Origin: Oscillospiraceae bacterium
GTDB lineage: Bacteria > Bacillota > Clostridia > UBA1381 > UBA9506
DNA: 64,000 nucleotides
Assembly (NCBI GenBank): GCA_015068855.1
Contig: SVJS01000004.1
Coordinates: forward strand, 62,001-126,000
Reading direction: 5' to 3'
Under the pieces are notes generated by a model. It was given only the letters and a program-made list of their open reading frames with translations. It made no database searches and was not told where the DNA came from. How positions within the stretch are numbered: position 1 is the first letter of the stretch; every line of letters begins with the position of its first letter. A program made the position numbers and the translations under genes. Below, piece after piece: positions 8,961 through 12,285 of this stretch.

Positions 8961-8989
8961 TTGACGGGTTAATTTTTTCATGATACAAT
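8961..8989 (+). promoter_or_regulatory. Putative promoter of the DRTGG/hydrogenase cassette
   Basis: TTGACG (8961-8966) and TACAAT (8984-8989) with a 17-bp spacer, about 70 bp before the first cassette gene. Confidence 0.7.
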
Positions 8990-9058: not shown

Positions 9059-9406
9059 ATGAAGTTAAAGCAGGTAAGTGAAATTTTACAGGCAAAGGTT
9101 TTAACTGGGCGTCCCTGGGAAGATATTGAAGTGCATTCTGCTTGCGGCTGTGACCTGATGAGCGATGTGCTTGCTTTTGTTAAGGATCAGGCACTCCTTT
9201 TAACAGGCCTTGTGAATCCGCAGGTTATCCGTACGGCGGAGATGATGGATATTAAGACCATTGTTTTCGTGCGCGGCAAGGTGCCGCAGGGTTCGGTTTT
9301 AGAGCTTGCAGAAGAAATGGGCATGACGATTATGACAACAGCGCTGCCTTTATATGTTGCCTGCGGGGAACTGTATCAAAACGGATTGAAAAGCAAAGAG
9401 GTGTGA
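9059..9406 (+). CDS. DRTGG-domain protein (cassette gene 1)
   Basis: A 115-aa single-domain protein resembling the DRTGG fold, a small alpha/beta domain that also occurs beside CBS domains and in phosphotransacetylase and CobB-like proteins and is thought to be regulatory. Visible features are the opening KQVSEILQAKVLTG, GCDLMSDVLAFV (about 32-43) and a hydrophobic core with LLLTGLVN. No catalytic motif is evident. It starts a run of five tightly packed genes (gap to next 3 bp), and a second DRTGG-like protein is encoded at 11219. That arrangement suggests one signalling or redox-regulatory unit, whose function is unproven. Confidence 0.75.
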   Translation: MKLKQVSEILQAKVLTGRPWEDIEVHSACGCDLMSDVLAFVKDQALLLTGLVNPQVIRTAEMMDIKTIVFVRGKVPQGSVLELAEEMGMTIMTTALPLYVACGELYQNGLKSKEV

Positions 9407-9409
9407 AAG

Positions 9410-9835
9410 ATGGCCGAACAACTTGTATTGCGTTACCCGATTGACGGGGAGAATTTTACAACGGCCGGCCAGGCTTCCAGCAACCTTAAAAAGGTTTTGA
9501 AACAATTAGGCGTTGCGCCGGAGATTATCCGTAAAGCAGCCATCTCAATGTATGAGGGCGAAATTAACACGGTCATTCACGGCAAGGGCGGGGAAGCAGA
9601 GGTCACCATTTTTTCCGATGAACTCAGGATTGTTTTCCGTGACCATGGCCCCGGCATTCCTGATATTGAAAAAGCCATGCAGGCCGGCTTTTCCACGGCA
9701 ACGGATGAAGCCCGTGAGCTGGGATTTGGTGCGGGCATGGGTCTGCCTAATATGAAAAAATATTCTGATGAACTTTCTATTGAGTCGACGGTTGGTCAGG
9801 GGACAACAGTGACCCTGATTATCCAATTACGCTAA
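9410..9835 (+). CDS. RsbW-like ATP-binding (HATPase) protein (cassette gene 2)
   Basis: A 141-aa GHKL ATPase of the anti-sigma-factor/serine kinase type. It has an N box EGEINTVIHG (E49, N53), G1 box DHGPGIPD (78-85) and G2 box GFGAGMGLPN (105-114). It has no sensor or dimerisation domain, so it is not a complete histidine kinase; as in RsbW/SpoIIAB, it may phosphorylate a protein partner on Ser/Thr. No anti-anti-sigma STAS protein is present nearby. It lies 3 bp after the first DRTGG gene and 44 bp before the hydrogenase-like gene. Confidence 0.85.
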   Translation: MAEQLVLRYPIDGENFTTAGQASSNLKKVLKQLGVAPEIIRKAAISMYEGEINTVIHGKGGEAEVTIFSDELRIVFRDHGPGIPDIEKAMQAGFSTATDEARELGFGAGMGLPNMKKYSDELSIESTVGQGTTVTLIIQLR

Positions 9836-9879
9836 GGAAACGAAGGGCATGCTCTTCTATCCTTAAAGGAGGGTTTTGC

Positions 9880-11214
9880 ATGAATGAAAATCTGTATTAT
9901 CATTCGGTGCGTCTGGATAAAGACCGCTGCAAGGGCTGCATCAACTGCATTAAGCATTGCCCCACAGAGGCAATTCGCGTGCGGGACGGCAAGGCGAAAA
10001 TCATTAAAGAACGCTGCATTGATTGCGGCGAATGTATTCGCGTGTGTCCGTATCAGGCTAAAAGCGCGGTGACGGAGCATCTGGATGATATTTTTAATTT
10101 CCGCTATAAAGTGGCCATTCCGGCACCTACCCTGTATGGTCAGTTTAACAATGTGAAAGATATCAACCTCATTCTGACAGGGCTTAAATACTTGGGGTTT
10201 GATGATATTTATGAGGTGGCAAAGGCCACGGAAATCGTAACGGATTACACCAAAAAGCTGATGGCGGAGGGAAAACTCGTAAAGCCCATTATTAACTCTG
10301 CCTGTCCGACGGTTATCCGCCTGATAACGGTTCGTTTCCCCGGTCTGATTGACCACATTCTGCCGCTGATTTCGCCTATGGAAACGGCAGCCATTGCAGC
10401 CAGACGGGAGGCGGTTGAAAAAACAGGGCTCTCGCCCTCTGAAATCGGCGTGTTCTTTATTTCGCCCTGTGCGGCAAAAGCCACCAGCATACGCAGCCCC
10501 CTGGGCCGGGACTATACGCCCATTGACGGCGTTTTATCCATGAAGGAAATTTACTTAAAGCTTCTGCCGATTTTGGGAAAGATTGAAACCATTGAACCGC
10601 TATCCACCTGCGCCTTTGAGGGCGTTCGCTGGGCCAATTCCGGCGGCGAAGCCAGTGCGCTGGATACAGAAAAGTATGTAGCGGTGGACGGCATTCATAA
10701 CGTCATCAAGCTTTTGGAAGAAATTGAAGATGATGAAAAGCTGGATATTGATTTTGTCGAGGCTTTGGCCTGTACAGGCGGCTGCGTGGGTGGACCTCTC
10801 AACGTGGAGAACACCTTTGTTGCCAAAACAAAAATTAAAAAGCTGGCGCAGGAACTCAAACAGCAGAAGCAAAAGCATGTGCCCATTCCCGTGGCGGAGG
10901 AAGAGCTGCTCTGGGATGTGCCCATTACATACCGCAACATTATGAATCTGGATGAAGACATGAGCGCTGCCATGCGGAAAATGGAGCGCATGCAGGAGAT
11001 TTATCGCAGCCTGCCGCAACTGGATTGCGGCTCCTGCGGGGCACCAAACTGCAAGAGTCTGGCAGAGGATATTGTGCGTGGCTTTGCAACAGAAACGGAT
11101 TGTATTTATAAGCTCCGTGAAAAAGTGCGCGATTTAGCCCGGCAAATGGTCGAGTTAGAAGATGAAATGCCCGGCGTTTTCAAAGCGGACGATAAAGAAT
11201 ATTACGGAAGGTGA
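9880..11214 (+). CDS. [FeFe]-hydrogenase-like iron-sulfur protein, probably sensory (cassette gene 3)
   Basis: A 444-aa protein with two N-terminal 4Fe-4S motifs (CKGCINCIKHCP at 17-28; CIDCGECIRVCP at 46-57), a central hydrogenase large-subunit-like domain and a C-terminal Fe-S motif (CGSCGAPNC at 383-391, plus C408). H-cluster ligand positions are retained: C142 in NSACPT, C197 in SPCAAK, and C298/C302 in LACTGGC. The residue before C142 is Ala141, where catalytic hydrogenases have the proton-relay Cys of TSCCP. That change, the lack of a maturation or electron-transfer partner, and the HATPase and DRTGG neighbours favour a sensor of H2 or redox state over a bulk hydrogenase. That role is inferred. 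Confidence 0.85.
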   Translation: MNENLYYHSVRLDKDRCKGCINCIKHCPTEAIRVRDGKAKIIKERCIDCGECIRVCPYQAKSAVTEHLDDIFNFRYKVAIPAPTLYGQFNNVKDINLILTGLKYLGFDDIYEVAKATEIVTDYTKKLMAEGKLVKPIINSACPTVIRLITVRFPGLIDHILPLISPMETAAIAARREAVEKTGLSPSEIGVFFISPCAAKATSIRSPLGRDYTPIDGVLSMKEIYLKLLPILGKIETIEPLSTCAFEGVRWANSGGEASALDTEKYVAVDGIHNVIKLLEEIEDDEKLDIDFVEALACTGGCVGGPLNVENTFVAKTKIKKLAQELKQQKQKHVPIPVAEEELLWDVPITYRNIMNLDEDMSAAMRKMERMQEIYRSLPQLDCGSCGAPNCKSLAEDIVRGFATETDCIYKLREKVRDLARQMVELEDEMPGVFKADDKEYYGR

Positions 11215-11218
11215 GTCT

Positions 11219-11548
11219 ATGACAGTTCAGGAATTTGCAACAAACAATGGATTGGAAATTGTGACGCAAGGGGATGTCTCCCGCACCATTTCCGGTTGTT
11301 ATATCGGGGATTTGCTAAGTCTGGCCATGAGCCGCGTGGAAGAGGGTCAGCTCTGGATTACCATTCAGGGGAACGTGAACATTGCGGCGGTTGCGGCGCT
11401 GACAGAGCCTGCTGCCATTTTGCTGGCGGAGGGTCGCCGTGCCGACGAGGAAACTCTTTTACGCGCCTCGCAGCAGGGTATTACTATTTTATACAGCGAC
11501 AAAACGGCCTATGAGCTGGCTTGTCTTTTATATGAGCAGAGTCGATGA
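11219..11548 (+). CDS. DRTGG-like protein (cassette gene 4)
   Basis: A 109-aa protein with the same layout as the 9059 gene product: MTVQEFATNNGLEIVTQGD at the start, GCYIGDLLSLAMSRV (about 23-37) where the first has GCDLMSDVLAFV, then a core with AAVAALTEPAAILLAEGR. Start is ATG 11219, 4 bp after the preceding stop, with a GGAAGGTG ribosome site; a longer frame from 11162 lies inside the hydrogenase-like gene. The two DRTGG-like proteins flank the hydrogenase-like gene and may form a pair. Confidence 0.72.
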   Translation: MTVQEFATNNGLEIVTQGDVSRTISGCYIGDLLSLAMSRVEEGQLWITIQGNVNIAAVAALTEPAAILLAEGRRADEETLLRASQQGITILYSDKTAYELACLLYEQSR

Positions 11549-12285
11549 AGCTGTTTTGTGATTTGCATATTCATTCCGCGCTGTCCCCGTGCGGGGATAT
11601 GGATATGACTCCCAACAACATTGTGAATATGGCGATTCTGAAAGGTCTTTCCATGATTGCGCTGACAGACCATAACTCCGTGGGCAACGTTCGGGCGATG
11701 CTCCAATGTGCGAAAGATAAGCCGCTTTGCGTTGTGCCCGGGATGGAGCTTGAAACCATGGAGGAAGCGCATTTTGTCTGCCTGTTTCCGACGATAGAGC
11801 AGGCCGAGGACTTTGAGGCATACATACAGCCCTACCGCATGGGGATTGAAAACCGGCCGGACATCTTCGGGGAGCAGGCCTATATGAACGCAGAAGACGA
11901 CATTATCGCTCATGAACCTGTGCTGCTGGCGGCAGCACTGACGCTGTCCATTTACGATGCGGCGCCGGTGGTTTCACAGCTTGGCGGCGTGATTCTGCCT
12001 GCCCATGTGGACAAAAGTTCTTACAGCGTCATTTCTAACTTAGGCGCTGTGCCGGAGGACCTGGGCTTTACCGCCGTGGAGCTGTCTAAAAACACGAGTT
12101 TTGCGGCAGCGCTTACAACCTGGCCGTACCTTGCAGACTATCAGGCGATAACAAGCTCGGATGCCCATTATTTATGGGATATCTATGAAACCCAGCAGGC
12201 CATCGACCTCGCGGAGCTTTCAGCTCCCTGTTTGGTGGAGACGCTGCGAAAAGCGAAAAATAGCGGGACATCTATTGAAAAATAA
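11545..12285 (+). CDS. PHP-domain metal-dependent phosphoesterase (cassette gene 5)
   Basis: A 246-aa PHP protein, a polymerase/histidinol-phosphatase-type metallohydrolase. Metal-binding motifs are DLHIHS (6-11), TDHNS (41-45), PAHVDKSSYS (in the middle) and SSDAHYLWD near the C-terminus. Relatives include the TrpH/YciV family, which acts on nucleotide phosphates or short RNA ends; the substrate here is unknown. Its ATG overlaps the upstream TGA by 4 bp, so translation is coupled to the cassette. A terminator follows. If the cassette is a signalling unit, this could make or remove a phosphorylated messenger, but that is speculation. Confidence 0.82.
   Translation: MKLFCDLHIHSALSPCGDMDMTPNNIVNMAILKGLSMIALTDHNSVGNVRAMLQCAKDKPLCVVPGMELETMEEAHFVCLFPTIEQAEDFEAYIQPYRMGIENRPDIFGEQAYMNAEDDIIAHEPVLLAAALTLSIYDAAPVVSQLGGVILPAHVDKSSYSVISNLGAVPEDLGFTAVELSKNTSFAAALTTWPYLADYQAITSSDAHYLWDIYETQQAIDLAELSAPCLVETLRKAKNSGTSIEK

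Follow-up and report, generated by a model that had tools for sequence, protein, structure and literature searches.

A five-gene cassette around a putative sensory [FeFe]-hydrogenase of group D in an Oscillospiraceae bacterium, and its conservation beside the hydABC operon

The five-gene locus

The locus described here lies on contig SVJS01000004.1 of an Oscillospiraceae bacterium (assembly GCA_015068855.1), a member of the Clostridia with a genome of the gut/rumen type, within positions 62,001-126,000 of the forward strand; this whole stretch of 64,000 nucleotides is referred to as the window. At window positions 9059-12285, five tightly packed genes, all on the + strand, encode a putative sensory [FeFe]-hydrogenase (HydS) flanked by two DRTGG-type proteins, a HATPase and a PHP-family phosphoesterase. 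The features of the locus are as follows.

8961..8989, + strand: promoter-like TTGACG-17-TACAAT with extended TG (consensus match only, 10/12)
9059..9406, + strand: DRTGG1, 115 amino acids (aa), stand-alone DRTGG domain protein
9410..9835, + strand: HATP, 141 aa, RsbT/SpoIIAB-type HATPase
9880..11214, + strand: HydS, 444 aa, group D (M2e) putative sensory [FeFe]-hydrogenase
11219..11548, + strand: DRTGG2, 109 aa, second stand-alone DRTGG-like protein
11545..12285, + strand: PHP-family phosphoesterase, 246 aa
12284..12325, + strand: intrinsic terminator, 18-pair hairpin and U run

The intergenic gaps are 3, 44 and 4 bp, and the fourth and fifth genes share a 4-bp ATGA overlap. DRTGG2 also has an in-frame ATG at 11162; relatives, however, keep the start that corresponds to Met at 11219, and the fourth gene most likely begins there. 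The terminator hairpin was calculated at −22.2 kcal/mol, compared to −6.5 ± 2.5 kcal/mol for shuffled sequences (z −6.25). Open reading frames, motif matching and hairpin folding reproduced the layout, spacing, single promoter-like site and terminator given by an initial annotation of this DNA. Control of the window cassette by Rex was rejected, as the best upstream site agreed at 10/14 positions, which is chance level.

The central hydrogenase and its known relatives

Pfam profiles matched HydS to Fe_hyd_lg_C (3e-31), to the FeS family PF04060 and to two 4Fe-4S sites. The architecture consists of two N-terminal [4Fe-4S] ferredoxin-type motifs, the H-domain and a C-terminal Fe-S domain, with the following motifs.

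10294..10308, + strand: H-cluster motif L1, NSACP, with Ala in place of the proton-relay Cys
10462..10479, + strand: H-cluster motif L2, SPCAAK, with Ser as the M353 equivalent
10759..10785, + strand: H-cluster motif L3, EALACTGGC, with Leu as the M497 equivalent
11026..11103, + strand: C-terminal [4Fe-4S] motif Cx2Cx4Cx16C, typical of sensory hydrogenases

The four H-cluster Cys residues were retained in 174/174 aligned group D sequences, the window protein included. The proton-relay Cys (C299 position) was missing from all 174 and was replaced by A, S, T, N or G (A in the window), while the M353 position (CpI numbering) was T or S in 172 of the 174 (S in the window). Window HydS also carries all eight charged residues (R30, R32, K35, K58, D378, E392, D393 and D403) of the type found in TamHydS, the list of conserved group D residues being that of PMC13104023. 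The retained H-cluster Cys residues, the exchanges at C299 and M353 and the C-terminal motif are published marks of group D (PMC8163306, PMC13104023). A maximum-likelihood tree, from which TamHydS was absent and in which sequences were allotted to groups on their motifs and lengths, placed HydS in clade D with support of 100/100, sister to group C and apart from groups A and B. The PAS domain characteristic of group C (M2f) was not found in window HydS by a Pfam domain search. These sequence features assign the central protein to the putative sensory [FeFe]-hydrogenases of group D (M2e). The initial annotation had called it a hydrogenase-like protein; it is an Fe-S hydrogenase, but of a recognized kind, for which a sensory role was proposed earlier (PMC3561251, PMC8163306, PMC8924675) and is still putative for characterised members (PMC8163306). 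HydE, HydF and HydG are all encoded in the window genome, so that the H-cluster can be built. The absence of H-cluster maturation was ruled out by the same genes.

Two relatives are on record in some detail. TamHydS of Thermoanaerobacter mathranii has slow turnover and raised H2 affinity, and its gene lies upstream of a bifurcating hydrogenase (PMC8163306). Cthe_0335 of Clostridium thermocellum is a group D HydS upstream of Cthe_0340-0342 (PMC3561251). Both share with window HydS the domain layout, the missing proton-relay Cys, the exchange of M353 for Ser or Thr, the C-terminal Cx2Cx4Cx16C motif, the eight charged residues and a HATPase neighbour (TamHydS: PMC8163306, PMC13104023); they differ in that the window cassette is detached from hydABC. 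Earlier work has recorded that the gene for a group D HydS lies upstream of the bifurcating hydrogenase, often with a histidine/serine kinase between them (PMC3561251, PMC3608648). HydS itself and this position are therefore already known, and the window cassette adds a new member of this kind, one without the linkage. The published neighbours are a HATPase or kinase and, for TamHydS, an AraC-type regulator, with no mention of DRTGG or PHP; by analogy, this AraC-type regulator may be a misnamed DRTGG2. The literature searched yielded no paper linking DRTGG, PHP and hydrogenase at one locus, although the flanking genes may have been described earlier, nor were the fusions or the DRTGG/PHP membership described below found there, the coverage of the literature being incomplete. 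Group C, exemplified by TmHydS, Ruminococcus albus HydS and Thermoanaerobacterium HfsB (PMC6776011, PMC11837493), is the sister clade and shares the C-terminal Fe-S motif, the missing proton-relay Cys and the presence of regulatory partner genes. Its members have PAS and a serine-phosphatase partner and, in R. albus, are linked to a ferredoxin hydrogenase, whereas group D is without PAS and has other partners.

Conservation, fusions and properties of the partner proteins

The search for group D HydS covered 398 genomes, sampled evenly across the phylum, and a set of named genomes; loci were counted only where enough flank was available, and fused genes were taken as present. The set DRTGG1-HATPase-HydS-DRTGG2-PHP was complete in 73/89 of the evenly drawn loci and in 50/54 of the named loci, and gene order was kept over 40-80% identity. 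The common order continues into the bifurcating hydrogenase operon as DRTGG1-HATPase-HydS-DRTGG2-PHP-hydC-HATP2-hydD-hydB-hydA, where HATP2 is a second HATPase. HydA/HydB was found within ~9 kb in 72/93 loci (65 downstream on the same strand and 7 divergent). By genome, HydS and PHP occurred together in 146, HydS alone in 10, PHP alone in 9 and neither in 233, and a HydA homologue was present in 145/156 genomes with group D HydS compared to 138/242 without HydS; these counts ignore kinship, the HydS-bearing genomes spanning roughly 50 families. The alternative named in the initial annotation, chance co-location in this lineage only, is excluded by the phylum-wide order, the co-occurrence and the linkage to hydABC.

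Fusions among these genes were observed in other genomes: DRTGG1-HATPase in seven cases, PHP-HATP2 in five, HydS-DRTGG2 in two and HATPase-HydS in two. In the five genomes with PHP-HATP2 fusions, HATP2 is gone from the hydABC operon. Taken together, the fused sequences link DRTGG1, HATPase, HydS and DRTGG2 in this order into one chain and join PHP with HATP2 as a pair. This pattern argues for physical contact, and the PHP-HATP2 fusions suggest HATP2 as a sixth member of the system. The initial annotation had read the five genes as input, transmission and output; insofar as it proposed one functional unit of Fe-S protein, kinase-like ATPase, DRTGG proteins and phosphoesterase, it is supported by the fusions and the conserved order.

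The window genome (21 contigs totalling 1.25 Mb, 93% complete) departs from the usual group D context beside a group A bifurcating hydrogenase. It does have a group A bifurcating hydrogenase operon, as well as two further [FeFe] hydrogenases, but hydC-HATP2-hydD-hydB-hydA lies on another contig (C1; L246:5592-10660), unlinked to the cassette and with HATP2 retained (L246, 6095-6643, outside the window). The statement of the initial annotation that the hydrogenase has no electron-transfer partners consequently holds beside the cassette in this genome, whereas in most genomes the cassette abuts hydABC. In four genomes of the same genus or family, the cassette is likewise apart from hydABC, beside an AddA-like gene, while the window copy lies beside YchF and other unlinked copies adjoin RecG and Sua5. 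Since the cassette remains intact in these relatives, it is deduced that the five genes stay together after leaving the hydrogenase operon. All five genes are under purifying selection, with nonsynonymous values (pN) of 0.09-0.29 against synonymous values (pS) of 0.66-0.81, and decay into pseudogenes after unlinking was rejected on these values. The big upstream gene in the same-genus genomes was considered as a pyruvate:ferredoxin oxidoreductase, which was rejected; it is a UvrD-type helicase/nuclease (AddA-like).

These data bear on the explanation that HydS is simply a slow enzyme of the ordinary kind, producing or oxidising H2, and that its neighbours are housekeeping genes travelling along by chance. 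Such an enzyme would be in keeping with the conserved N-terminal [4Fe-4S] clusters for electron transfer and with TamHydS, an active and reversible catalyst in vitro (PMC8163306), but it is at odds with the lack of the proton-relay Cys from all 174 group D sequences. Passengers would not be expected to keep their order over such a range of identity, to include a PHP nearly exclusive to HydS genomes or to yield four kinds of fusion, nor would the block be expected to relocate intact among unrelated housekeeping neighbours (AddA, RecG and Sua5). This explanation was judged very improbable.

HATP matched HATPase_c (5e-13) and has the catalytic residues E49 and N53, the DxGxG motif and the segment GFGAGMGLPN, so that the residues of partner-switch kinases (N-box Glu/Asn, DxGxG and GxGxG) are all present. 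The catalytic Glu/Asn and the ATP-binding glycines of SpoIIAB were kept in all or nearly all of 164 HATPase sequences. The ATPase family, the catalytic pair and the ATP-lid glycines are shared with RsbT/SpoIIAB/RsbW (SpoIIAB structures 1til, 1l0o and 1th8); unlike these, the cassette HATP has no nearby STAS partner and is fused to DRTGG1 or HydS in some genomes. The DRTGG domains may, by analogy, take the place of the STAS partner. HATP is likened to the partner-switch kinases only in the sense that it presumably works like them, its kinase activity being suggested by these residues.

The predicted fold of DRTGG1 (mean confidence, pLDDT, of 84) gave as best matches AF1212 (2ioj, Z 15.5) and the CBS-DRTGG pyrophosphatase (3l31, Z 13.6), and the former supports assigning the first gene to this family. 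DRTGG1 has an invariant S35 within a D-L-M-S-D motif and DRTGG2 has invariant D31 and S34 within a D-L-L-S motif, so that a D-L-[LM]-S motif with an invariant Ser is common to both. The cassette proteins differ from AF1212, the nearest solved DRTGG protein, in standing alone and in this motif, which was not apparent in AF1212 in a profile alignment. The invariant Ser is a candidate phospho-acceptor.

The PHP protein matched its Pfam family at 3e-8, with complete metal-ligand residues. Its model (pLDDT 95.5) was matched best to endonuclease Q (Z 22.5), then to RNase AM (Z 16.6) and much more weakly to Cps4B (Z 8.4), a PHP tyrosine phosphatase. Because the fold is nearer to endonuclease Q and RNase AM than to Cps4B, a nucleotide or nucleic-acid substrate would be at least as likely as a phosphoprotein. 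Fold and metal ligands are shared with endonuclease Q (5zb8) and RNase AM (9etk, 7ug9); the cassette PHP differs in its ~20% identity to them, in forming a separate family nearly confined to genomes with group D HydS, and in an invariant S-P-C motif in the active-site loop (residues 14-16, window 11584-11592). It is possible that the cysteine of this motif is redox or metal sensitive. RNase AM has Ser-Asp where PHP has Ser-Pro-Cys.

Proposed role in signalling

With slightly better than even confidence, the cassette is interpreted as a module devoted to signalling, with group D HydS at its centre; HydS would steer the kinase that acts on DRTGG, PHP would oppose this as a hydrolase, and HydABC would thereby be tuned. 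In the proposed mechanism, HydS would bind H2, or would report the redox state of ferredoxin or the H-cluster, at a slow, catalytically detuned H-cluster. A conformational change would be relayed to the adjacent RsbT/SpoIIAB-type HATPase and the DRTGG domains, and the HATPase would phosphorylate the invariant Ser of one or both DRTGG domains. PHP would reverse this phosphorylation or hydrolyse a nucleotide signal bound by DRTGG, and the output would reach the NAD- and ferredoxin-linked HydABC, probably via HATP2 of the hydABC operon. Within this scheme we infer H2 as the ligand, the kinase activity, the Ser targets, the PHP substrate and HydABC as the target. A more specific version is offered tentatively: a hitherto undescribed phospho-switch of six proteins (the five and HATP2), common among Clostridia, in which a detuned hydrogenase would directly control a DRTGG-acting kinase and so regulate the bifurcating hydrogenase, possibly post-translationally.

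A number of observations weigh against a signalling module. None of the five proteins showed a DNA-binding domain in a Pfam domain search, so that the output may be post-translational, and the same search found no STAS phospho-acceptor domain in the cassette. The DRTGG matches in Pfam (8e-5 and 4e-4) both lie slightly below the gathering score, and in the DRTGG1 model the loop 35-40 at the end of the motif, which includes S35, is the sole segment of very low confidence, so that any role of S35 is tentative. TamHydS catalyses H2 turnover (PMC8163306), and its C-terminal cluster is not reduced by H2 (PMC13104023). In some lineages HydS is accompanied by DRTGG2 alone or by HATPase alone, and in the family of the window the cassette is unlinked from hydABC. 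A same-genus genome, G006 (95% complete), has HydA and lacks group D HydS, so that the module is dispensable for possessing HydABC. The literature search found no experiment on the cassette.

The close linkage to hydC-HATP2-hydD-hydB-hydA in most genomes could instead reflect an accessory or assembly set for the bifurcating hydrogenase, in which the HATPases would be ATP-driven chaperones or gates, DRTGG and PHP would aid cofactor insertion or repair, and HydS would be a scaffold or electron-transfer subunit. The fusion of PHP to HATP2, itself a hydABC operon gene, and the lack of a DNA-binding or classical two-component output in the cassette are consistent with this. It was nevertheless judged unlikely, since the 138/242 genomes with a HydA homologue and without group D HydS indicate that HydABC is independent of HydS, the HATPase resembles anti-sigma/switch kinases with catalytic Glu and Asn retained, and HydS is nearest to the sensory group C.

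Instead of H2, the module might read the internal redox, ferredoxin or nucleotide state; HydS would then act as an electron sink and so read reduced ferredoxin, and DRTGG would read a nucleotide. DRTGG shares its fold with the regulatory region of a pyrophosphatase that is under nucleotide control (3l31), the unresponsiveness of the TamHydS C-terminal cluster to H2 (PMC13104023) would be accounted for, and some relatives show an excess of Rex-like (NADH/NAD) sites ahead of the cassette, with at least 12/14 positions matched in 8/146 upstream regions where shuffles expect 0.95. However, all H-cluster ligands are retained, which would be needless for a pure ferredoxin reader, and TamHydS resembles the regulatory [NiFe] hydrogenases in its raised H2 affinity and its CO tolerance (PMC8163306); this reading was considered quite unlikely.

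The authors of the TamHydS study asked how a signal could be transmitted without PAS (PMC8163306). For the signalling module preferred here, the conserved partners and fusions name a likely contact chain for such a relay, so that the question becomes one of direct binding and phosphorylation tests. The electron-bifurcating hydrogenase is a main H2-turnover route in fermenting gut and rumen bacteria.

Further observations were made at individual loci. In Thermoanaerobacterium, the gene directly 3′ of hydS (L136:10280-10609) is DRTGG2. Rex-like (NADH/NAD) operators lie upstream of DRTGG1 in L074, L084, L163, L175, L193, L201 and L215, that of L074 reading TTGTTAATCTCTTAACAA. At L139, L140 (a Spirochaetaceae metagenome-assembled genome), L169 and L237, HydS and HATPase only are present, and no DRTGG or PHP gene was found nearby. 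A reduced variant in which HydS-DRTGG2 is followed directly by hydD-hydC-hydB-hydA was seen at L200, L206 and L209; the genomes of this variant also carry a fuller cassette elsewhere (L207, L210). Finally, two loci (L170:13369-15672 and L176:13543-15879) encode a sensory-type hydrogenase and a C-terminal histidine-kinase-like ATPase in one polypeptide of 767-778 aa, ~5.5 kb upstream of a group D HydS that is itself fused to DRTGG2.

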